Positions 8,874-20,236 of a stretch of 54,775 nucleotides of DNA are shown here, piece after piece. Origin of the DNA: an uncultured beta proteobacterium (GTDB taxonomy: Bacteria > Pseudomonadota > Gammaproteobacteria > Burkholderiales > SG8-41); the NCBI GenBank assembly GCA_903913965.1, contig CAIWNB010000039.1, positions 1 through 54,775 of the forward strand, read 5' to 3'. Under the pieces are notes generated by a model. It was not told the origin of the DNA, did not search any database, and was given only the letters and a program-made list of their open reading frames with translations. A program made the translations under genes and the position numbers. Numbering within the stretch: position 1 is the stretch's first letter; each line of letters starts with the position of its first letter.

Positions 8874-9007
8874 TTCTGCTGCGGTCTAAACGATGCGCGC
8901 CGAACGGAGTGGTCGAGCGCACTCGAATGCTATTGCGGCAAGCCATCGAGGATTCTCGCGCGCGGATATGGCGCCCTTGATGACGACTATGCGAAAATCC
9001 ACCCCGC

Positions 9008-9083
9008 GCCGGGTTAGCTCAGTTGGTAGAGCAGCGGTTTTGTAAACCGAAGGTCGCGGGTTCGATCCCTGCACCCGGCACCA
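9008..9083 (+). tRNA. tRNA-Thr (anticodon UGU)
   Basis: A complete 76-nt cloverleaf with encoded CCA can be folded by eye. The acceptor arms are GCCGGGT and ACCCGGC, the D arm is GCTC...GAGC, the anticodon loop is TTTGTAA with TGT at the anticodon, and the T arm contains GTTCGATCC. It reads ACA (and ACG by wobble). The 449-bp gap between the hydrolase (8873) and the ABC ATPase (9323) holds this tRNA and otherwise no gene that I can support. Confidence 0.97.
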
Positions 9084-9240
9084 TCTCCGGCCGTTCCAGC
9101 ACGCTGCCTTTGAAACCTGCCATAATGGCGCCCGCACTGAAGCTGCGGCACGGGGGGCTGGTATTTCTCAAGGGCGGATGACAGCTTTCAGCGTTCGCGG
9201 GAACCTCTGGCACAGGCGGCGGTCGATAGTTGCGCGGGAC

Positions 9241-9269
9241 TTGAAAACAGTTGCGCAACCCCATACAAG
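9241..9269 (+). promoter_or_regulatory. candidate promoter of the Gld-like ABC cluster
   Basis: TTGAAA (9241-9246) and TACAAG (9264-9269) are spaced by 17 bp, about 53 bp before the ATPase start. The -35 is good and the -10 moderate. Confidence 0.35.
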
Positions 9270-9322
9270 TGAAAAAATCACGCGCTGCCGGCAGCGGCCG
9301 GTTGACGTGGTGGAGGACCATA

Positions 9323-10279
9323 ATGATCAAAGTTGAAAATCTGGTGAAGTCTTTCGGCGCCAAGCGCGCGGTCGACGATGTTTCGTTCAGCGTCGAGCGC
9401 GGCGAAGTGCTTGGGTTTCTCGGGCCCAACGGTGCCGGTAAATCCACAACCATGCGCATCATCACGGGCTTTTACCCGCCGACGTCGGGACGGGTGACCG
9501 TTGGCGGCTTCGATATTGTCGAGGATCCGCTGCCCGCCAAACGCCTGATCGGCTATCTGCCGGAGAACGCGCCGGGCTATGCCGATATGACAGTGTTCGG
9601 TTTTCTGGCCTTTGCCGCCGACTTGCGCGGCCTGACCGGCGACGCCAAGAAGAAGGCGATTCACCGCTCAGTTGAGACGTGCATGCTCGAAGGAGTGCTC
9701 TACCAGACGATCGACACCCTGTCGAAGGGCTACAAACACCGTACCTGTCTGGCGCAGTCGATCATTCATGATCCGGACATCCTGATTCTTGACGAGCCGA
9801 CCGACGGCCTCGACCCCAACCAGAAGCACGAGGTGCGCGGACTCATCAAGCGCATGGGCGAGAAAAAGGCGATCGTTTTCTCCACACACATCCTCGAAGA
9901 AGTCGAAGCAGCCTGCTCGCGCGTGATCATCATCGACCGCGGCCGCGTGGTGGCTAACGGTACGCCGCAGGAACTTAAGGCACGTTCGGAAACTGCTGGT
10001 GCGGTTCATTTGTCGGTGCGTGGCACCGCCGCTGCGGCCATCATGGAAAAACTCGCCGCCGTTTCCGCGCGCAGTGAGGTCCTCTCCGAACAGGGCGGCC
10101 TTGCCGTGGTGCGGGCTTATCCGCAGACGCGCGGCGGCAACGCCGCGTTTGTCGGCAGCGTCGCTGAACTGGCGCAACGTGAACAATGGAAGCTCGACGA
10201 GATTCATGTCGAGGAGGGGCGCATGGACGATGTGTTCCGCAGCATCACCTTGCCTGACACCATCAAGAGGGCCGCATAA
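9323..10279 (+). CDS. ABC transporter ATP-binding protein, GldA-like
   Basis: The 318-aa ATPase energises an ABC-2 type exporter with the next gene as its permease. Walker A is GPNGAGKS (34-41) and Walker B is ILILDEPTD (153-161), followed by a DGLDP D-loop and STHILEE with the switch histidine. The signature is LSKGY (133-137) instead of LSGGQ, and the Q-loop position reads LPENAP, both as in GldA-type and NosF-type ATPases. A 100-residue C-terminal extension follows the nucleotide-binding domain. The ATG at 9323 has GGAGG seven bases upstream; the frame from 9251 is rejected. Its stop overlaps the permease start (TAATG). Confidence 0.93.
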   Translation: MIKVENLVKSFGAKRAVDDVSFSVERGEVLGFLGPNGAGKSTTMRIITGFYPPTSGRVTVGGFDIVEDPLPAKRLIGYLPENAPGYADMTVFGFLAFAADLRGLTGDAKKKAIHRSVETCMLEGVLYQTIDTLSKGYKHRTCLAQSIIHDPDILILDEPTDGLDPNQKHEVRGLIKRMGEKKAIVFSTHILEEVEAACSRVIIIDRGRVVANGTPQELKARSETAGAVHLSVRGTAAAAIMEKLAAVSARSEVLSEQGGLAVVRAYPQTRGGNAAFVGSVAELAQREQWKLDEIHVEEGRMDDVFRSITLPDTIKRAA

Positions 10280-11022
10280 TGGGTGCATGGAATAATATCA
10301 AGGCGATCATGAAGCGCGAGCTCGGCGGTTATTTCACGTCGCCGGTGGCTTATGTGTTTCTGGTGATCTTTCTGTTGCTGACTGGTTTCTTCACTTTTAC
10401 CGTCGGTAATTTCTTCGAGCGCGGCGAAGCTTCGCTGGTGTCGTTCTTTACCTGGCACCCATGGCTATATCTGTTTCTGGTGCCGGCCGCTGGTATGCGT
10501 CTGTGGTCTGAAGAGCGTCGCCTTGGTACGCTCGAGCTGCTGCTAACCATGCCGATCACGACGTGGCAGGCGATCGTCGGAAAATTTCTCGCTTCTTGGC
10601 TGTTTCTCGGCATTGCGCTGGCGCTGACCTTCCCGGTGTGGATTACAGTGAACTGGCTGGGCAGCCCTGACAATGGCGTGATTTTCGCCGGTTACGTCGG
10701 CAGCCTGATGTTGGCTGGTTCCTATCTGGCGATCAGCTGCATGACTTCGGCGATGACGCGTAACCAGGTGATCAGCTTCATCGTTTCGGTGATGCTCTGC
10801 CTGTTTCTGATCCTGGCCGGTTTCACGCCGGTCACCGATCTGCTGGTGCGTTGGGCTAATCCGGCGGTAGTGCAGACCATTGCTTCGTTCAGTGTGATGA
10901 CGCATTTTGAAAGCTTTCAGCGTGGCGTCATCGACTTGCGCGACGTGATGTTCTTTGCTTCCTTGATGGGCTTCGCCTTGTTTACCACCGGTGTGGTCAT
11001 TCGCGGCCATCGCGCGGGTTAG
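10279..11022 (+). CDS. ABC-2 type permease, GldF-like
   Basis: The 247-aa membrane protein has about six hydrophobic segments and the typical ABC-2 entry IKAIMKRELGGYFTSPVAYVFL. A cytoplasmic loop SEERRLGTLELLLTMPITTWQ, the contact region with the ATPase, follows the second helix. It overlaps the ATPase gene by one base and ends 9 bp before the GldG-like gene, so the set is an operon. The exported substrate is unknown; in gliding Bacteroidetes the GldAFG complex is needed for motility, but homologous sets occur in many non-gliders. Confidence 0.9.
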   Translation: MGAWNNIKAIMKRELGGYFTSPVAYVFLVIFLLLTGFFTFTVGNFFERGEASLVSFFTWHPWLYLFLVPAAGMRLWSEERRLGTLELLLTMPITTWQAIVGKFLASWLFLGIALALTFPVWITVNWLGSPDNGVIFAGYVGSLMLAGSYLAISCMTSAMTRNQVISFIVSVMLCLFLILAGFTPVTDLLVRWANPAVVQTIASFSVMTHFESFQRGVIDLRDVMFFASLMGFALFTTGVVIRGHRAG

Positions 11023-11031
11023 GAACAGATC

Positions 11032-12924
11032 ATGAATAAAAAACATCTCGAACAACTGCTCTATTCAGCCGGCGGTGTGGCCGCCCTGGTCGTTATTCTG
11101 ATTGCGGCTAACTTCATTATCAGCTCGCTGAATCTGCGTGCCGATTTGACGCAGGGCAGCGTGTATACGCTGTCGCCGGGCACCAAGGCGATCCTGTCGA
11201 AGCTCGAAGCGCCGGTCAAAATCCGTTATTACTATTCACAGGGCAACAGCGCACTGCCGGTCGGTCTAAAGACTTTTGCGAAACGCGTTGAAGATTTGCT
11301 CGGCGAGTTTGCGCGCGCCGGTGGCGGTAAGGTGATCATCGAACGGCTCAATCCGGAGCCTGATTCGGACGCTGAGGAATCAGCAACCCTCGATGGCATC
11401 GAAGGTCAACTGACGAATACCCAGGAAAAGTTTTATCTTGGTTTGTCCGTTGCCTTTCTGGATCAGAAGTTCCCCTTGCCGGTGCTCGCACCGGACCGCG
11501 AACAGCTGCTTGAATATGACATCACACGCGCGATCACACGCGTCGCTTCGACCACCAAGCCGGTGATCGGCGTGATGAGCGGGTTGCCAGTGATGGGGCA
11601 GCCTCTCAATCCGATGAAAAAACAGCAGCCGACCGAGCCGTGGACGCTGATGACCGAGTTGCAGAATCTGTTCACCGTCAAAAAGATTGACCTCAACACG
11701 GACAAGATTCCCGACGAGATCAAGGTGCTGCTGGTGATCCATCCGCGCGACATCCAGGAAACCGCGGAATTCGCCATCGACCAGTTCGTGTTGCGTGGTG
11801 GCAAGTTGATCGCTTTCATGGATTCTTTCGCTTACTTCGATCAGCAGCCCGATATGCAGAACCCGTTGGGCGGCACCGCCGCCGGGCAGTCCACCTTCTT
11901 CCGCCTGCTCAAGCATTGGGGCTACGGCATGGAGATGGGCAAGGTCGTTGCCGATTTGACGTATGCCAGTGGCGCGGGTCCGCGCATTCTGCCGACGCTG
12001 CTATCGCTGCCGCAGGACGCTTTGAACAAGGATGATGTGGTGACCAGCCGCGTCGGTCAGTTGCTGATTCCGTTCTCTAGCGTGTTTACCGGTAAACCGG
12101 CCGAGGGGCTCACGCAAAGCGTGCTGGTGCAGACTTCACCGAATGCGATGCTGGCCGATCTGATCATCGCCACGCTCTCCGGCGAGCCATCAACGCGCGG
12201 TTTTCAGCCGAACGGCACGCCTTATCCGATCGCCATACGCGTCTCCGGAAAATTCAAGACAGCCTTTCCGGAAGGCAAACCAAAACCGTATGAGCCACCG
12301 CGCGACCCGAAGAAGGGTGATGCCAAGGCCGACGAAGCCAAAGCGGATACATCGCTGAAAGAGTCGGCTCAGGAAAATTCGGTGGTGCTTGTTTCCGACG
12401 TCGACATGCTGACCGATAACGCCGCGGTTGAAGTGCAGGAAGTGTTCGGTCAGAAAGTGATCGTGCCGCGTAACGGCAACCTGAACTTTGCGCAAAGTCT
12501 GGTTGAGCAGGTGGCCGGTGATTTTGATCTGACCGGTTTGCGCAGTCGTGCCGCCTTCACGCGCCCGCTCACGGTGATTCAGCAGATGGAGTCCCGTGCA
12601 CAGCAGAACTACCTGGGCAAGATCAAGGAACTCGAAGATACCTTGCAGCAGACGCAGGAGAAACTCACTGCCCTGCAGAAGCAGCGCGGCGGCACCCAAA
12701 GCTCGGTGCTCACGCCGGAACAGCAGACGGAGGTCGATAATTTCCGCAAGAAGACCACCGAAACCAAGCGTGATCTGAAAGACCTGCGCAAGAATTTGCG
12801 TGAGGAAAGTGAGCTGCTGCAGTTCTGGACCAAGCTCGTCAACATCGGTACTGTGCCGTTGCTGGTGGTGATACTCGGTGTCGTGCTGGCGATGATGCGC
12901 CGGCGGAAGGTGGCTGCCAAATGA
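11032..12924 (+). CDS. GldG-like auxiliary protein of the ABC-2 exporter
   Basis: The 630-aa protein has an N-terminal membrane helix (about 10-32), a conserved periplasmic start LRADLTQGSVYTLSPGT, a long GldG-type extracytoplasmic domain with VLLVIHPRD and AFMDSFAYFD segments, a Lys/Asp/Ala-rich insertion near residues 415-445, a coiled coil (about 520-605) and a C-terminal helix followed by a basic RRRK tail. The membrane ends with a large periplasmic body match the auxiliary component of uncharacterised Gld-type transporters. Its stop overlaps the start of the DUF4340 gene (ATGA). Confidence 0.88.
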   Translation: MNKKHLEQLLYSAGGVAALVVILIAANFIISSLNLRADLTQGSVYTLSPGTKAILSKLEAPVKIRYYYSQGNSALPVGLKTFAKRVEDLLGEFARAGGGKVIIERLNPEPDSDAEESATLDGIEGQLTNTQEKFYLGLSVAFLDQKFPLPVLAPDREQLLEYDITRAITRVASTTKPVIGVMSGLPVMGQPLNPMKKQQPTEPWTLMTELQNLFTVKKIDLNTDKIPDEIKVLLVIHPRDIQETAEFAIDQFVLRGGKLIAFMDSFAYFDQQPDMQNPLGGTAAGQSTFFRLLKHWGYGMEMGKVVADLTYASGAGPRILPTLLSLPQDALNKDDVVTSRVGQLLIPFSSVFTGKPAEGLTQSVLVQTSPNAMLADLIIATLSGEPSTRGFQPNGTPYPIAIRVSGKFKTAFPEGKPKPYEPPRDPKKGDAKADEAKADTSLKESAQENSVVLVSDVDMLTDNAAVEVQEVFGQKVIVPRNGNLNFAQSLVEQVAGDFDLTGLRSRAAFTRPLTVIQQMESRAQQNYLGKIKELEDTLQQTQEKLTALQKQRGGTQSSVLTPEQQTEVDNFRKKTTETKRDLKDLRKNLREESELLQFWTKLVNIGTVPLLVVILGVVLAMMRRRKVAAK

Positions 12925-14111
12925 ACCGCAAATCGTTTTTGACTCTGCTGGTGGTGTTGGCCGTGCTGGGTGGCGCGGGCCTCGGACTGTTCTGGAATGA
13001 TCTGAGTTCCTGGCGTAAGGCCGATGCAAAAATCGGCTCCAAGCTGTTTGAAAAACTCCCCGTCACCGATATCGCCCAGATTCAGCTGACCGATGGCAAG
13101 GGCAGTATGCGCCTGGTCGTCAAGGACAAGCGTTGGGTGGTCGAAGAGCGTAACGGCTACGGTGGCAACAATCAGGATATCGGCGACTTGCTGATCAAAT
13201 TGACCGAACTCAAGGTTGTGCAAACCGAAACGGTTGGCGATTCACTGCTACCGCGCCTCAATCTGGTTGATCCGGGGAAGGGCGATGGCAAGGATGCCAA
13301 GGCCGCCGAGACCATGGGTACGCGTCTTGAGTTGTTTGACGCGGCCGGCAAGTCTGCAGCCACCATTCTGCTGGGCAAGAAAGTAATCAAGACTGAGGAC
13401 AGCCCCCTGCCGATCAAGCCGCAGACCCCGGTTGGCCGTTATGTCTTGATGCCGGGTAGTACTACCGTGTTAGTGGTATCGGATGCGCTGGTCGTCGCCG
13501 AAGCCAATCCGGCACGCTGGCTTGCCAAGAGTTTTTTCAAGGCTGAGCGTATCCGTAGCCTTACCGCTGGCGGTGAGGGCGCGCAATGGAAACTCGCGCG
13601 GCCCGAAGAATACGGCCAGTGGAAGTTTGCGGATGGTGGCGGCGAGCTTGATGCCAGTGCCGCCGTAGGCGCGGTCAACGCGCTGGCCAATCTTGCGTTT
13701 TCGGACGTTGCGGTTGGCGTGAAAGCGGAGAATATGGTCAAGCCGCGCAGTTTTGTCGGCGAGACCTATGACAACCTCGTCTATACCGTCAAGATCGCCA
13801 AACAGCCCGAGGGCGACGACTATTACCTCACCGTCGCCGTGACCGGTGAAGCGCCGCGCGAACGCAAAGCGGAAAAGGGTGAGAAGGCCGAAGACAAAGA
13901 GCGGCTCGATAAACAGTTCGCGGAGACGCTGGTCAAACTGGATGAGCGAGTGAAGGCCGAGAAGGATTTGTCTGCCTGGACCTTCGTTGTTCCCGGCAAG
14001 ACTTTGGAGCCGCTGCTTAAAGATCGTGCCGCCCTGATCGCCAAGCCGCGTCAGCCCGGTGCTGGCGGACCACCGGGCATGCCGCCGGGTATGTTCCCGG
14101 GTATGCGCTAG
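12921..14111 (+). CDS. DUF4340 protein of the Gld-like exporter cluster
   Basis: The 396-aa protein has one N-terminal membrane helix and a repeated beta-rich domain of the DUF4340 type. Marks are ITDIAQIQLTDGK-like strands, RWVVEERNGYGG, LLIKLTELKVVQ and a second copy starting near RIRSLTAGGEGAQWKL. A charged, Lys/Glu-rich insertion lies near residues 310-335, and the C-terminus is a short Gly/Pro/Met repeat (GMPPGMFPGMR). DUF4340 proteins regularly follow GldG-like genes and probably form part of the periplasmic assembly. The ATGA overlap with the upstream gene supports coupled translation. Confidence 0.88.
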   Translation: MNRKSFLTLLVVLAVLGGAGLGLFWNDLSSWRKADAKIGSKLFEKLPVTDIAQIQLTDGKGSMRLVVKDKRWVVEERNGYGGNNQDIGDLLIKLTELKVVQTETVGDSLLPRLNLVDPGKGDGKDAKAAETMGTRLELFDAAGKSAATILLGKKVIKTEDSPLPIKPQTPVGRYVLMPGSTTVLVVSDALVVAEANPARWLAKSFFKAERIRSLTAGGEGAQWKLARPEEYGQWKFADGGGELDASAAVGAVNALANLAFSDVAVGVKAENMVKPRSFVGETYDNLVYTVKIAKQPEGDDYYLTVAVTGEAPRERKAEKGEKAEDKERLDKQFAETLVKLDERVKAEKDLSAWTFVVPGKTLEPLLKDRAALIAKPRQPGAGGPPGMPPGMFPGMR

Positions 14112-14170
14112 AATATCGGCGCAATTACGACGCAGCAGCGATTACCCTATACCAAGCGCGGAGCCTGATC

Positions 14171-14365
14171 ATGAAATTCAAGGATATTCTCAAGTCGCCG
14201 GTCTTTGCGCGTGGCCACCTCTGGCCGTTTGAAAAACGCAAGCAGCAGTATGAGTCGGACGTCACCGCACTGGTGCGCAAGATGCAGGAAGATGAAAGCA
14301 TCCGGCGTGATCAGAGCTTCGCCTGGAACCGCTGGCGTGCCGACGATCGCGCGACGACCCGCTAG
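14171..14365 (+). CDS. small basic protein, possibly DUF3460-like
   Basis: The 64-aa protein is soluble and rich in Lys/Arg and Asp/Glu. Its middle, YESDVTALVRKMQEDE, resembles the N-terminal segment of small DUF3460 proteins of Burkholderiales as I remember them; the C-terminal half does not match well, so the family is uncertain. GGAG lies upstream of the ATG. It lies 59 bp after the DUF4340 gene, and the next Bug gene probably begins inside it. It could be the fifth gene of the exporter operon or the first of the Bug cluster. Confidence 0.6.
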   Translation: MKFKDILKSPVFARGHLWPFEKRKQQYESDVTALVRKMQEDESIRRDQSFAWNRWRADDRATTR

Positions 14366-15338
14366 GCTGCTGCAGTGCGGCCTGGTGGCCGCGCTCAGTC
14401 TGTCTGGCGTCGTGTCAGCGGCATCGGCGGTGGAACCAGTGTATCCGGTGCGTCCTGTTCGGTTCATTGTGCCCTTTGCGCCCGGCGGTAGTACCGATAC
14501 CCTTGCACGCACGCTGGCGCAACGTTTGTCCGATGCGCTGGGTCAGCAAGTGGTGGTCGATAATCGTGCCGGTGGTAATGGCAACATCGGCACGGAACTC
14601 GTCGCCCGTGCCGCGCCCGACGGACACAGCATTGTTCTGGGTTACATCGCCAACCTCGGCATCGGTCCGAGTCTTTACGCGAAACTGCCGTTTGATCCGG
14701 TGAAGGATTTCGCACCGATTACATTGCTGGCAGTCGCCCCCAACATTCTGGTTGCCCACCCTTCGGTGCCGGTGAAATCGGTGCGTGAACTGGTGGCCTA
14801 TGCCAAGGCCAATACGCAAAAGGTCAATTACGCGTCAGCGGCGGTTGCCAGTCTGGGCCATTTGGCCGGTGAATTGCTGAACAGCTCGGCCGGTATCCAG
14901 ATGCAGCACGTGCCCTACAAAGGTAGCGGCCAGGCGGTGATCGACTTGCTCGCCGGCCAGGTGCAGATCATGTTTAGCGGCATGTCATCGGTGATGCCGC
15001 ATATTAAAGGCGCCAAGCTGCGCCCGCTCGCGGTAACTGGTGCGCGGCGTTCTGCGGCAGCCCCAGAGGTGCCGACGATTGCAGAATCCGGTTACCCGGG
15101 GTTTGAGGCCAGCGCGTGGTACAGCGTGATGGCGCCGGCTGGGACCCCAAGGTCCGTGGTGATGCGTCTGAACAGCGAGATTTTGCGTGCGCTCAAAGTG
15201 CCCGAAGTGAAAGAGCGCCTCGAAAACGTCGGCTTTGAAATCGTTGGTAGTTCGCCCGACGAATGCGCAACGTACATACGCAGTGAAATCGTCAAATGGG
15301 CCAAGGTCGTGAAGGCCTCCGGCATCAAAGCCGAATGA
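14337..15338 (+). CDS. Bug family periplasmic receptor 2 (first of three in tandem)
   Basis: The protein has a signal peptide (RLLQCGLVAALSLSG... to SAASA), then YPVRPVRFIVPFAPGGSTD, NRAGGNG, VPYKGSGQAV and the C-terminal KWAKVVKASGIKAE. These mark a full-length Bug receptor of about 333 aa. The open frame extends left to 14205 inside the 64-aa gene, so the start is inferred: a GTG at 14337 gives a normal signal peptide with GGAA a few bases upstream; an ATG at 14292 has a purine run too close. The gene would thus overlap the small gene by 29 bp, and it overlaps the next Bug gene by 4 bp. No TctA/TctB partner is present. Confidence 0.88.
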   Translation: MPTIARRPARLLQCGLVAALSLSGVVSAASAVEPVYPVRPVRFIVPFAPGGSTDTLARTLAQRLSDALGQQVVVDNRAGGNGNIGTELVARAAPDGHSIVLGYIANLGIGPSLYAKLPFDPVKDFAPITLLAVAPNILVAHPSVPVKSVRELVAYAKANTQKVNYASAAVASLGHLAGELLNSSAGIQMQHVPYKGSGQAVIDLLAGQVQIMFSGMSSVMPHIKGAKLRPLAVTGARRSAAAPEVPTIAESGYPGFEASAWYSVMAPAGTPRSVVMRLNSEILRALKVPEVKERLENVGFEIVGSSPDECATYIRSEIVKWAKVVKASGIKAE

Positions 15339-16285
15339 GATACGCCGCGGCAGCGCTTCTTCTGCTGTCCGGACTCTGCTGTGCCCAGACTTATCCAGTG
15401 AAGCCGGTGCGCTTGATTGCCGCATCCTCGCCGGGTAGCGCGGTCGATATCGTTTCGCGCGTGATCGCGCAAAAATTATCCGAACAAATCGGCCAGCAGG
15501 TGGTGGTTGATAATCGCGCCGGCGCAGGCGGCAATCTCGGCGCCGAGCTGGCGGCGCGTGCCCCCGCCGATGGTTACACACTGTTCATGGCGACCCCGGC
15601 GCAGGCCATCAACACCGGGTTGTATCGCAAACTGGATTACGATCTGACACGCGATTTTGCACCGGTCAGTCTGTTGACCATCGGACACTATTGCGTCGCC
15701 GTGCATCCCTCGCTGCCCGTACATACGGTGAAGGCATTGATTGCGCTGGCGCGTAGCCGCAGCGGCCAGCTGAATTACGCGTCGGCGGGCAACGGCAATG
15801 CGACCCATTTGGCCGGCGCATTATTCAACACCATGGCGCGGGTTGATCTTGTGCATGTCCCCTACAAAGGTTCTGGCCCGGGACTGACCGATTTGATCGG
15901 TGGGCAGGTGCAGGTGATGTTTCCCAATCTTACCGCTGCCATCCCCTACGCCAAGGCCGGTCGTTTGCGCGCACTCGCGGTGAGCGGCGAGAAGCGCTCT
16001 TCGATCATGCCGGAACTGCCAACAGTCAGCGAGGCAGGCGTGCCCGGTTATCGCGTGATTTCGTGGTTCGGCATGATGGCGCCTGCAGCGGTGCCGGCGG
16101 AAATTGTCGCCCGCTTGCAGCGCGAGCTGGCGCTCACCATGCGTGCCACCGAGGTGCGCGGAAAACTCGCCGGCGAGGGCGCCGAGCCGATGGCAAGCAC
16201 GCCTGAATTCTTCGGCACGTTTATCAAATCGGAAATTACGCAATGGGTGAAGGTGGTGCGCGAGGCCCGTATCAGCGCGGAGTGA
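15335..16285 (+). CDS. Bug family periplasmic receptor 3 (second of three in tandem)
   Basis: This 316-aa Bug receptor starts at the ATG of an ATGA overlap with the preceding Bug gene, so translation is coupled. The signal peptide is short (MRYAAAALLLLSGLCCA), followed by QTYPVKPVRLIAASSPGSAVD, NRAGAGGNLG, VPYKGSGPGL and a C-terminal KVVREARISAE. The glycine-rich loop reads SPGSAVD where most relatives, including the neighbours here, have PGGxTD or similar. This suggests that ligand choice differs from its two neighbours. Confidence 0.9.
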   Translation: MRYAAAALLLLSGLCCAQTYPVKPVRLIAASSPGSAVDIVSRVIAQKLSEQIGQQVVVDNRAGAGGNLGAELAARAPADGYTLFMATPAQAINTGLYRKLDYDLTRDFAPVSLLTIGHYCVAVHPSLPVHTVKALIALARSRSGQLNYASAGNGNATHLAGALFNTMARVDLVHVPYKGSGPGLTDLIGGQVQVMFPNLTAAIPYAKAGRLRALAVSGEKRSSIMPELPTVSEAGVPGYRVISWFGMMAPAAVPAEIVARLQRELALTMRATEVRGKLAGEGAEPMASTPEFFGTFIKSEITQWVKVVREARISAE

Positions 16286-16329
16286 TACTGCGTGTCGACA
16301 AACCATTCAAATACTGTCTGGAGGTTATT

Positions 16330-17316
16330 GTGAAGCAATTGAAAAAAACAACTGCGCTTTCAATCGTCGCATTGATCCTTGGCGCTATGGCTGCGCCGGT
16401 AATTGGCGCTGATACAGCTTATCCGAGCAAGCCGGTGCGCATGATTGCACCTTATCCGCCGGGCGGTACTTCCGACATCATCGCGCGGATTGTTGGCATG
16501 AAGTTGAACGAAGCCTGGGGGCAGCAGTTGGTAGTCGATAATCGCGCTGGCGCCAACGGTGGCATCGGCAGTGAACTGGCGGCGAAATCGCCGGCCGATG
16601 GATATACCTTGCTGGTTGGCAATATGACGCCGATTGCGGCCAACCCTTCACTCTACGCGAAGCTTGGTTATGATCCGCTGCGCGATTTCGCCGGCGTGAC
16701 GCTGGTGGCGGCGGGCCCCAACGTATTGGTGGTGAATCCATCCTTGCCAGTGAAGTCGGTGCAGGAATTGACTGCCTATGCCAAAGCTAATCCGGGCAAA
16801 CTGAATTTTGGTTCCGGTGGCGCCGGTTCGCCAGCGCATCTGGCCGGTGAAATGTATAAAACCATGACAGGCGTGGCGATGACGCATGTGCCATACAAGG
16901 GCACGGTGTTATCGGTCAATGATTTGATTGCGGGTCAGGTTCAAGTCGTGTTTTCCGATGCGCCACCGGCGGTGCCTCATGTGAAGAGTGGGAAGCTGCG
17001 CGCACTGGCCGTTACCGGTGCCAAACGTACCCCCCTGTTGCCGGAACTGCCGACAGTGGCCGAAGCAGGTGTGCCCGGGTTCGCCTTTGATAATTGGTGG
17101 GGCATACTGGTGCCGGCAGGTACGCCGAAGCCGGTGATCGGTCGCATCAATGCCGAGATCGTCAAGGCGATGCAAACGGCCGACGTCAAGGAACGCTTTG
17201 CCAATCTAGGCGTGGAGGCGATCTACAGCACACCGGCTGCCTTTGATGATTACATCAAGTCGGAATACGCCAAGCTAGCGAAAGTGATCAAAGCGTCGGG
17301 CGCACGCGCCGACTGA
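16330..17316 (+). CDS. Bug family periplasmic receptor 4 (third of three in tandem)
   Basis: This 328-aa Bug receptor has a signal peptide with a Lys-rich n-region (KQLKKTTALS) and cleavage near VIGA. It then shows YPSKPVRMIAPYPPGGTSD, NRAGANGGIG, VPYKGTVLSV and the C-terminal KVIKASGARAD. The start is a GTG at 16330 with GGAGG 5 bp upstream; the frame open from 16243 lies partly inside the preceding gene. It lies 44 bp after the second Bug gene. The downstream neighbour is convergent. Confidence 0.92.
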   Translation: MKQLKKTTALSIVALILGAMAAPVIGADTAYPSKPVRMIAPYPPGGTSDIIARIVGMKLNEAWGQQLVVDNRAGANGGIGSELAAKSPADGYTLLVGNMTPIAANPSLYAKLGYDPLRDFAGVTLVAAGPNVLVVNPSLPVKSVQELTAYAKANPGKLNFGSGGAGSPAHLAGEMYKTMTGVAMTHVPYKGTVLSVNDLIAGQVQVVFSDAPPAVPHVKSGKLRALAVTGAKRTPLLPELPTVAEAGVPGFAFDNWWGILVPAGTPKPVIGRINAEIVKAMQTADVKERFANLGVEAIYSTPAAFDDYIKSEYAKLAKVIKASGARAD

Positions 17317-17325
17317 TCTGCAGGG

Positions 17326-17350
17326 CGCGGGCGCTCTACGCGCGCCCGCG
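17326..17350. terminator. GC-rich hairpin between convergent genes
   Basis: Arms CGCGGGCG (17326-17333) and CGCCCGCG (17343-17350) form an 8-bp stem with a 9-nt loop between the last Bug gene and the thioesterase. It has no T run on either side and overlaps the thioesterase stop, so terminator function is uncertain. Confidence 0.35.
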
Positions 17351-18295
17351 TGCCACGTGGTGGGTGACGACGTCGAGTACCCGTGCACCAGTGTCTGTTT
17401 TGACCTCGGTACGCACCACGGCGATGGTTTTTCCGGGATGCACGACGCGTGATTTCACGACGAGCGCCTTGCCCCGCCCGGGGCTGATGTAGCAGGCTGA
17501 AATATTCGACAGCATCATGTGGGCCGGCGCGGCGACACAGGCGCAGCGTGCAGCGATGCCGACCGAAATGCCGCCCTGCACATGGCCTACACGGTTGCCA
17601 ACGTGAGGGCCGACCGCAAAGCGCGTGCGTGCACCGTCTCTCGTGCGTATCGGCAGCCCGCCCCAAAAATGCTGGATGAAAGCCGGTTGGTCGGCGGCTT
17701 TGCGCAAGGCATTCCGGCAGGCCTTGAAGATCGGTTCTTCGTCGGCCAATAGTGCGCCTGCGCTAAGTGCGGCCGGCTGCGGCGGTGTTTCGTATTGCCA
17801 TGGCAACGGTGCGAGGGCGACGCCGGGCGGTGGTTCGAGCGCAGCGAATTCCCCGCTGGTGTGGCAAATAATGCCCGCGCTGGTCGCGATCGTTGCACTT
17901 GCCAGCAACTGCTGGACGGCGCTACCGGCGAAAGCGCCGAGTGGACGCGCCGTTGAAGTCGCGGCGCCGCTGGCCGGCAGTCCCGTGAATTGCAGTTGTA
18001 AATGCAGCGTAGCCAGGCGTGCCCCCGCCGCGACCTGGCTGCGTGTCGCCGTGGCGAGCGAGCTATCGGCGAGCATGCATAGCGTCGTGAGGTCGAGCAT
18101 GCCTTGGTCGTCGCAGGTGTGGGGCGCGTGCGGTAACGACATGACCACTTCATCGCCGTTGATGCGCGGCAGCGCCATATCGAGAAAGTAACCGGCGAAG
18201 TGCAATCCTGGAATACGGTTGCCGGCGATGCCGCGCAGAACTTGTGCGGTGATCTCGCCGGCTTGCGGGATGGGGGCAATGGTGTTTTTAGGCAT
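17336..18295 (-). CDS. Tandem hotdog-fold acyl-CoA thioesterase-like protein (PaaI group)
   Basis: The 319-aa protein appears to hold two hotdog domains in tandem. The first is marked by DDQGMLDLTTLCMLADSS and the second by RVGHVQGGISVGIAARCA. Both are the central-helix segment that in PaaI-type thioesterases carries the catalytic HGG...D/E. In the second copy the usual His before GG is Gln, and in the first the motif is degenerate, so activity is uncertain. The ATG at 18295 is chosen; a GTG at 18343 would add 16 residues. No ribosome site is clear for either. Confidence 0.7.
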   Translation of the reverse strand: MPKNTIAPIPQAGEITAQVLRGIAGNRIPGLHFAGYFLDMALPRINGDEVVMSLPHAPHTCDDQGMLDLTTLCMLADSSLATATRSQVAAGARLATLHLQLQFTGLPASGAATSTARPLGAFAGSAVQQLLASATIATSAGIICHTSGEFAALEPPPGVALAPLPWQYETPPQPAALSAGALLADEEPIFKACRNALRKAADQPAFIQHFWGGLPIRTRDGARTRFAVGPHVGNRVGHVQGGISVGIAARCACVAAPAHMMLSNISACYISPGRGKALVVKSRVVHPGKTIAVVRTEVKTDTGARVLDVVTHHVARGRA

Positions 18296-18369
18296 GATTA
18301 AAGGGCAGTGCGCGGACAGGTTGCCCGCTGGTCTCACAAGCAAGCGGCTGCGTTACCGCAGCCGGGGCG

Positions 18370-18915
18370 TTATACCTTGAGGAAATGCTCGCGGTAGTAT
18401 TTGAGCTCGTTGATGGATTCGTAGATGTCGGCCAGAGCCTCGTGTTTGCCATGTTTGACAAAACCGGCGGCCAGATCGGGGCGCCAGCGCTTCATCAATT
18501 CCTTCAGTGTGCTGACATCGAGGTTGCGGTAATGGAAGAACGCCTCCAAGGCCGGCAGATAGCGCGCCATGAAGCGGCGGTCCTGATGAACGGTGTTGCC
18601 ACACATCGGCGAAGTGCCGGCAGGTGCATAGGCGCTGAGAAATTCAACCAGCCGGCGTTCGACCTCGGCCTCGGCCAGCGTCGATGCCTTGACGCGGTCG
18701 ATCAGGCCGGATTTCGCATGGGTGCTCTTGTTCCAGGCGTCCATCGCTCCGAGCACTGCATCGCTTTGATGCACCACTAACACGGGTGCCTCAGCGACCG
18801 TATTGAGTTGTGAGTCGGTGACCACGATCGCGATTTCCAGCACGCGCTCGATTTCCGGGTTGAGGCCGCTCATTTCCATGTCGACCCACAGCAGATTGTC
18901 GGGATTCGCAGCCAT
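18370..18915 (-). CDS. orn: Oligoribonuclease
   Basis: Orn is the 3'-5' exoribonuclease that degrades dinucleotides and short RNA fragments, including pGpG from c-di-GMP breakdown. The 181-aa length is standard. The DEDDh residues are visible: [11 protein letters not shown] (Asp12 and Glu14), then a mid-protein Asp, and HQDRRF and KHEALADI near the C-terminus. It is divergent from the M48 protease gene with 79 bp between starts. The pGpG link is of interest because the window also encodes a diguanylate cyclase. Confidence 0.96.
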
Positions 18916-18957
18916 GATGATTTGTTTGCACCGGTTAAAACTAAACAGGCCCGCATT

Positions 18958-18986
18958 TTGTCATATTCACGCCGAGATAGGATAAT
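18958..18986 (+). promoter_or_regulatory. strong sigma70 promoter, leaderless-type
   Basis: TTGTCA (18958-18963) and GATAAT (18981-18986) have exactly 17 bp between them. The M48 protease ATG begins at 18995, eight bases after the -10, about where transcription would start, and no Shine-Dalgarno is present. The mRNA is therefore probably leaderless or has a leader of only a few bases. Confidence 0.65.
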
Positions 18987-18994
18987 CTTCGCCT

Positions 18995-20236
18995 ATGCAT
19001 ACCTTCACAGTCTTGTTTCTTGCCGCGCTGGCCCTGACCACCACACTCAAGATGTGGCTGGGCTTGCGCCATATCCGTCATGTCGCCGCCGCCCGCGAGG
19101 CGGTGCCGGCTGAATTCGCCGCCGAAATCACCGCAGAAGCTCACCGTACGGCGGCTGACTATAGCAACGCCAAGACCCGTCTCTCGCTGCTCAGTATCGT
19201 CTTCGAAGCGGTGGTGGTTTTGGTGCTGACCTTCGGCGGGGTGCTGCAGGTGCTCGATGGGTTGAGCAGTGCCTGGTTTGAGCCTGGCGTCGCGCGCGGT
19301 GTCACGCTGATCATCATGCTGGGTGCCTTGATGGCGGTGATCGAGATGCCATTTGACATCTACCGCACCTTCGTCATCGAGCAGCGTTTCGGCTTTAATA
19401 AAATGACGCCGCGCATGTTTATCCTCGATGGTATCAAGCATGCGCTGCTGGGCGCTGCGCTTGGTGTTCCGCTGGTCGCCGCCATTCTGTGGGTGATGGC
19501 GGGCATGGGGCCGGCATGGTGGCTGTATGCCTGGCTGGTCTGGATGGCCTTTAACCTGATGGTATTGGCGATATTTCCGACCTGGATTGCACCGCTATTC
19601 AATAAATTTGCACCGCTTGAAGACCTTGCACTCAAGAGCCGGATCGAAGGTTTGCTGGAACGCTGTGGTTTCAAGGTCGGTGGCCTCATGGTGATGGATG
19701 GTTCAAAACGCTCCAGCCACGGCAACGCGTACTTCACCGGCTTTGGCAAAACCAAGCGTATCGTTTTCTTCGATACCCTGCTTGAGCGCTTGTCGCCACA
19801 GGAAGTCGAGGCTGTACTCGCACATGAACTCGGACACTTCAAGCACAGGCATGTGATCAAGCGCATGGTGTGGACGTTTGCTGTGAGCCTGGCTTTTCTC
19901 TGGCTGCTGGCCCAGTTAATGACGCAGACCTGGTTCTATACGGCGCTCGGTGTCAGCACATCTTCAACAGCGATGGCGCTACTGTTGTTCTTTATTGTGG
20001 TGCCGCAATTCACCTTTTTGCTTTCGCCGCTGTCGAGTTATTACTCACGCAAGCATGAGTTTGAGGCCGACCACTATGCCACGGAGCAGGCGGCGGCCGA
20101 TGATCTGGTGACGGCGCTGGTCAAGCTTTACAAGGATAACGCAGCGACGCTGACGCCCGATCCGCTGCATTCGTTGTTCTACGATTCGCATCCTCCGGCC
20201 ACCGCGCGTATTGCGCGCCTGAAAGCGGTCGGTTGA
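18995..20236 (+). CDS. M48 family metalloprotease, Ste24/CAAX protease-like
   Basis: The 413-aa inner-membrane zinc protease belongs to the Ste24-like branch of family M48. It has several membrane helices, an N-terminal extension typical of the CAAX-protease branch, HELGH at 277-281 (two zinc histidines and catalytic Glu) and a downstream KHEFEADHYA segment carrying the third zinc ligand. The bacterial role is probably membrane protein quality control; no prenylation substrate is implied. It ends 1 bp before phhB, with which it is probably cotranscribed. Confidence 0.93.
   Translation: MHTFTVLFLAALALTTTLKMWLGLRHIRHVAAAREAVPAEFAAEITAEAHRTAADYSNAKTRLSLLSIVFEAVVVLVLTFGGVLQVLDGLSSAWFEPGVARGVTLIIMLGALMAVIEMPFDIYRTFVIEQRFGFNKMTPRMFILDGIKHALLGAALGVPLVAAILWVMAGMGPAWWLYAWLVWMAFNLMVLAIFPTWIAPLFNKFAPLEDLALKSRIEGLLERCGFKVGGLMVMDGSKRSSHGNAYFTGFGKTKRIVFFDTLLERLSPQEVEAVLAHELGHFKHRHVIKRMVWTFAVSLAFLWLLAQLMTQTWFYTALGVSTSSTAMALLLFFIVVPQFTFLLSPLSSYYSRKHEFEADHYATEQAAADDLVTALVKLYKDNAATLTPDPLHSLFYDSHPPATARIARLKAVG

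Follow-up and report, generated by a model that had tools for sequence, protein, structure and literature searches.

A 54,775-nucleotide stretch of contig CAIWNB010000039.1 (positions 1 to 54,775; assembly GCA_903913965.1) from an uncultured beta proteobacterium (Burkholderiales, SG8-41), referred to here as the window, carries a run of four genes encoding a GldA-like ATPase, a GldF-like permease, a GldG-like protein and a DUF4340 protein, followed by the gene for a 64-residue basic protein, s64. The exporter encoded by this run is a complete, ordinary member of the widespread and poorly understood GldA-GldF-GldG-DUF4340 kind. With moderate confidence, the locus is read as a four-gene ABC-2 exporter accompanied by s64 as a DUF3460-type cytosolic protein of the same neighbourhood, and not as an exporter of which s64 is a dedicated subunit. 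The new points are small ones, namely a predicted GIFT fold for a betaproteobacterial GldG protein and the tentative assignment of a conserved 64-residue family to the DUF3460 group. The small protein also represents a case where neighbourhood alone suggests an exporter subunit and wider sampling does not.

All genes of the run are on the forward strand. The GldA-like ABC ATPase (9323..10279; PF00005, 98.5 bits) has an ATG start preceded by GGAGG six bases upstream, and contains the Walker A motif GPNGAGKST, the signature LSKGYKHR and the Walker B motif ILDEP. The GldF-like ABC-2 permease (10279..11022; PF12679, 30.1 bits with a cut-off of 27.2) shows five separate segments above the hydropathy threshold. 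The GldG-like protein (11032..12924; PF09822, 178 bits; PF23357, 76 bits) comprises, in order, an N-terminal transmembrane (TM) segment, DUF7088, the GIFT/ABC_transp_aux domain, long helices and a C-terminal TM segment; hydropathy places its membrane segments at residues 15-33 and 602-620, with 568 residues between them. The DUF4340 protein (12921..14111; PF14238, 36.8 bits with a cut-off of 25) has an N-terminal hydrophobic segment at residues 6-24 followed by 372 residues, within which a weaker hydrophobic stretch (175-193) corresponds to two beta strands in the predicted model. All four proteins pass the Pfam cut-offs. According to the open reading frame (ORF) coordinates, ATPase and permease genes overlap by 1 bp, permease and GldG-like genes are separated by 9 bp, GldG-like and DUF4340 genes overlap by 4 bp, and 59 bp lie between the DUF4340 stop codon and s64. 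An ATPase, an ABC-2 permease and an ABC_transp_aux protein were found together in what appears from the sequence to be a single operon-like run, which may form one transcription unit; promoter and terminator scans of positions 8900-15400 gave no excess over shuffles (2 against a mean of 2.1; 7 against 7.0). The coordinates, overlaps and gap given in the earlier note were confirmed from the ORF boundaries, and its figure of about 1000 residues on the periplasmic side agrees with the roughly 940 residues (568 plus 372) indicated by hydropathy. Its description of the 64-residue protein as basic was also borne out by composition (15 K+R versus 10 D+E).

The GldG-like protein was modelled (model md1ea55d6bc94, 41 sequences) with modest confidence, at a mean pLDDT of 65.4. 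Residues ~175-501 of the model matched oligosaccharyltransferase chains best (VIA Z 16.6-17.6 over 214-234 residues) and, within the same region, the N-terminal domain of IFT52 (VIA Z 16.4). The match entries name only the oligosaccharyltransferase complex; we read the chains as OST48/Wbp1. A Foldseek search returned a GH42 enzyme first (E 2.8e-4), together with oligosaccharyltransferase chain 6s7o_G (E 5.8e-4). The model predicts for the GldG-like protein a GIFT fold in common with IFT52 and OST48/Wbp1, which are eukaryotic, belong to other complexes and have 11-14% identity to it in those alignments, and it also shows long helices ahead of the C-terminal anchor. This is the relation among GIFT-domain proteins of Beatson and Ponting, which a review (PMC7226087) describes, naming GldG, IFT52 and Wbp1 and reporting a proposal of sugar binding. 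The model of the DUF4340 protein (mca91496f6562; mean pLDDT 86.2) predicts a beta-rich body behind the N-terminal TM anchor. For this model Foldseek returned nothing at E <= 0.001, its top match having an E of 0.08, and the best VIA matches, with Z of 6.2 (2mct), 5.1 (4q0y) and 4.7 (YycH, 2fgt), were all under the trust level of the tool. Sequence searches of the PDB gave a best E of 0.73 for the GldG-like protein and 1.5 for the DUF4340 protein.

The transporter of gliding Bacteroidetes, GldA-GldF-GldG, is composed of the same three protein families, with a GIFT domain in GldG also, whereas the window run is additionally completed by the DUF4340 gene. The gliding equivalogs are the best NCBIfam models for the three proteins, with 302.5 bits for the ATPase (TIGR03522, cut-off 402.6), 193 bits for the permease (TIGR03518, cut-off 288.5) and 87.9 bits for the GldG-like protein (TIGR03521, cut-off 389.85). 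Because all three scores fall below the curated cut-offs, the exporter is related to the gliding transporter but stands outside that equivalog set. The ATPase signature LSKGYKHR resembles the LSKGYRQR given for GldA (PMC9127263). A search of the genome for SprA and GldM gave no match, in a search where the control genomes were silent too. The claim of the earlier note that a betaproteobacterium has a Gld-like ABC-2 exporter is supported by the Pfam, NCBIfam and fold matches, and such an exporter is not unusual there. Of 150 genomes sampled from the order, 76 encode ABC_transp_aux (PF09822) proteins, and DUF4340 was present in 44 of the 60 relatives searched, among them all 36 that belong to the window's family. 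From Thiothrix, gldA-, gldF- and gldG-like genes have been reported (PMC3368414), and the occurrence of such systems in Proteobacteria is therefore not new; for archaeal GldG-like proteins, a secretion role was predicted (PMC5898192). Generic PF09822/PF14238 exporters belong to the same families as the window exporter, and among them the window GldG is of a larger type (163-185 bits to PF09822) that occurs in families f1, f3, f6, f11, f13 and f17, the other matches reaching at most 104 bits. A second, smaller ATPase-permease-GldG-DUF4340 cluster is located in the same genome, on contig C137 at ~16044-19668 (locus L088). GldG/DUF4340 exporters are widespread, and the literature searched contained no established substrate for any of them in a non-gliding bacterium.

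The s64 gene (14171..14365, forward strand) is a real and conserved gene. Among 60 genomes searched, a relative is present in each of the 36 that belong to the same family and in one of the 24 from other families of the order, with members in nine genera of the window's family; 71 loci were collected. Between the window copy and 18 of the 71 relatives, differences at the three codon positions amounted to 196, 162 and 494, mostly at the third position, and 18 columns are invariant among the 12 rows of the alignment. The window protein belongs to no Pfam or NCBIfam family, and Pfam matches of 12 relatives were marginal at most. These weak matches (BING4CT, DUF4880, NirDL HTH, FF and DUF7873) were taken as chance because they differ between members, as was the best PDB match of the s64 profile, to dynein regulatory complex protein 1 (E 0.0011).

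The C-terminal half of s64 looks homologous to DUF3460 (PF11943), which would make s64 a diverged DUF3460-like protein. An hhalign comparison of s64 with 12 DUF3460 proteins gave a probability of 93.6, E 2e-7 and a score of 39.0 over 31 columns, against 20.5 for the best of 200 column-shuffled controls and 9.8 for the reversed alignment. The YES[DE]xT motif of DUF3460 and the stretch that follows it align with residues 25-55 of s64. Unlike DUF3460, s64 is extended at its N-terminus by KSPVFPxGHxW, and it lacks the C-terminal WD...PYxY part, of which the W-D ... Y-x-Y residues are invariant in 12 of 12 DUF3460 rows and absent from the s64 rows. When the 12-row s64 profile was run against 399 genomes of the order, matches occurred in 29; the weak ones include the coordinates of DUF3460 proteins in genomes G082, G125 and G175, and the profile also matched a protein of G309 that scores 79.9 bits to PF11943. 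DUF3460 itself was matched in 95 of the 150 order genomes surveyed. No match was obtained in any of the four window-family genomes listed or in G040 of family f6, and G089, G133 and G172, also of f6, are outside the 95. Family f6 genomes G040, G089 and G172 do have s64, G133 not being among the s64 matches, and the two groups seem complementary in distribution, as far as these searches indicate. In the window's own genome no DUF3460 match was found, in a search where the controls were silent, whereas the same family was matched in the 95 of 150 genomes elsewhere. An ORF of about 98 residues (L190, G263:C38) is an apparent s64/DUF3460 intermediate; it has no Pfam match, and its genome also has a normal s64. 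Within 1.5 kb of DUF3460 genes, a putative ScpA-like motif was noticed in 14 of 30 loci (L191-L220), from which no function was derived. DUF3460 was not mentioned in the literature searched.

The suggestion of the earlier note that s64 may be a new partner of the exporter is weakly supported: the two are linked within the family, but the gap between them is variable and the relatives of s64 elsewhere are unlinked. Linkage was tested at the 55 of 71 loci whose flanks reach 1.9 kb or more upstream and 1.2 kb or more downstream, 16 being excluded for short flanks. Across the linked loci, s64 begins a median of 528 bp behind the DUF4340 stop codon, the interval being at most 110 bp in 11 of 61 and more than 300 bp in 48 of 61. 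The intervening genes are of various kinds. In the window's genus they encode nitrile hydratase (NHase) subunits, the alpha subunit gene filling this position at 6 of the 71 loci; at 32 of the 71, such as L107, L110 and L151, the gap contains a lipoprotein-like gene, and an FMN-dependent dehydrogenase gene was found there at L127, on the same contig as L080. Two of the testable loci have TctC only next to s64 and one has neither gene. At L119 and L137, s64 stands with TctC and other neighbours and not behind the exporter, and at L158 neither DUF4340 nor TctC adjoins it; in these three genomes GldG is on another contig, GldG being present in 5 of 5 genomes queried. Three genomes of family f6 have the exporter on one contig and s64 on another. 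DUF3460 was found in 11 of the 12 other-family genomes that carry the large GldG type, and in none of the 11 does it lie on the contig of the exporter (the DUF3460 and PF09822 surveys are assumed to cover the same 150 genomes), and seven exporter loci of other families (L253-L259) had neither an s64 gene nor a lipoprotein gene. Within the family s64 keeps its position behind the exporter, an arrangement that was not observed in other families. We read s64 as sharing the neighbourhood rather than as a subunit. The prospect that s64 would stand beside the exporter in other betaproteobacteria held for its own family and failed for the DUF3460 relatives and for family f6.

Several observations weigh against this reading. 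They favour an alternative in which s64 serves the exporter as a cytosolic regulator or assembly factor peculiar to this family, drawn from the DUF3460 group once its gene stood behind the exporter. DUF4340 is upstream of s64 on the same strand at 52 of the 55 testable loci (43 with TctC and nine without), so that the possibility, also raised in the earlier note, of s64 lying mostly beside unrelated genes was not borne out within the family. This linkage extends across nine genera and exceeds that of s64 to TctC (45 of 55), DUF4340 and s64 both occur in 36 of 36 family genomes, s64 is strongly conserved, and seven genomes of the window's genus have a gap of only 18-62 bp (59 bp in the window), which is compatible with co-transcription. 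Part of the linkage is plain synteny, because 32 of the 40 loci scanned, out of 71, retain the tRNA-Thr upstream of the exporter; that proportion is lower than 52 of 55, however, and the difference is therefore counted in favour of a partner role. Two of the eight loci missing the tRNA (L126 and L129) have almost no sequence before the ATPase. Because the genomes are drafts, location on a different contig is also compatible with moderate distance or misbinning. Other points count against the main reading without bearing on the regulator: neither the window s64 nor the 12 aligned relatives reach the gathering cut-off of PF11943, the model of the GldG-like protein has a mean pLDDT of only 65, and the sugar-binding idea is a proposal reported in a review (PMC7226087) and not derived from GldG data. 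The regulator alternative is nonetheless considered unlikely, given that the gap exceeds 300 bp in most linked loci and is filled by nitrile hydratase, lipoprotein-like or FMN-dehydrogenase genes, and that s64 is apart from the exporter in two genomes further to those three of f6. It appears quite improbable that this family has co-opted a DUF3460-type protein as a cytosolic subunit or regulator dedicated to a GIFT-domain ABC exporter; if true, this would for the first time open a functional route into the uncharacterised DUF3460 family and into the GldG exporters of non-gliding bacteria.

Downstream of s64 the gene of a TctC (Bug) periplasmic binding protein (14337..15338, forward strand; PF03401, 251 bits) suggests another association, with s64 acting as a translational coupler for TctC or as a partner in a TctC-dependent uptake route. 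The TctC start is either the GTG at 14337, which overlaps s64 by 29 bp, or the GTG at 14385, beyond the s64 stop codon; the former is preferred on account of the Arg-rich N-terminus, which resembles a signal peptide. TctC follows s64 within 250 bp in 57 of 71 loci (extrapolated starts) and is kept at both family loci where s64 is away from the exporter. A recount showed that the overlap is forced in 16 of the 57, because no in-frame start codon follows the s64 stop; the overlaps obtained from extrapolated starts at 42 of 71 loci are not established, because a later start is possible in 41 of 57. Exporter and s64 occur without TctC at nine of the 55 testable loci, three f6 loci have no adjacent TctC, and TctC genes are abundant here, so to attach s64 to TctC seems rather improbable. 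The third alternative turns from s64 to the small lipoprotein encoded after DUF4340 in several other genera, which would be the cargo or partner of the exporter, then a lipoprotein-handling system. The lipoprotein-like gene in the DUF4340-s64 gap occurs in 25 of 60 family genomes, and its products have a lipobox-like (L)PGC, a Thr/Ser-rich composition and a C-terminal CSC, with no Pfam match for the two members scanned. The Gld proteins GldJ and GldK are lipoproteins. In Flavobacterium, the stability of both is reported to need GldA, and that of GldK to need GldF as well (PMC9127263). The gene is absent from all 13 genomes of the window's genus, though the exporter is present, as it is from the seven other-family exporter loci, and this alternative is strongly doubted.

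In the preferred reading, that of a four-gene exporter with s64 as a neighbour, two GldA-like ATPases would power a pair of GldF-like permease subunits. The GldG-like protein would be anchored in the inner membrane at both ends and present its GIFT domain in the periplasm, and the DUF4340 protein, anchored at one end, would supply a second periplasmic module. This pair may receive or guide the substrate, with transport presumably directed outwards. As a first and tentative guess by analogy, the substrate could be an envelope glycan or glycoconjugate, because GIFT domains are common with an oligosaccharyltransferase subunit and are proposed sugar binders; a lipoprotein ranks second. The s64 protein would be a cytosolic, diverged DUF3460-type protein that holds its place in a conserved chromosomal neighbourhood.

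Further features surround the run. The tRNA-Thr(TGT) gene (9008..9083, forward strand) forms the upstream flank of the exporter, outside it, and is the one kept in relatives. Downstream of s64, three TctC (Bug) genes follow in a row (14337-17316). At L055, a 158-residue ORF in the DUF4340-s64 gap apparently joins the start of NHase beta to the end of NHase alpha and is likely a deletion remnant; separate NHase genes are at this position in L057 and L059-L062, the Pfam family calls being taken from the L099/L101 copies. A role of s64 as nitrile hydratase accessory protein, suggested by the NHase alpha and beta genes that precede it in relatives, was considered and rejected, as s64 matches no NHase-related model and NHase alpha is found in only seven of 71 loci. 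Several metagenome-assembled records with this locus (L091, L093, L119, L128 and others) bear the title Bordetella parapertussis, and one bears Chitinophaga pinensis; these titles look wrong beside the many records named 'Betaproteobacteria bacterium'.

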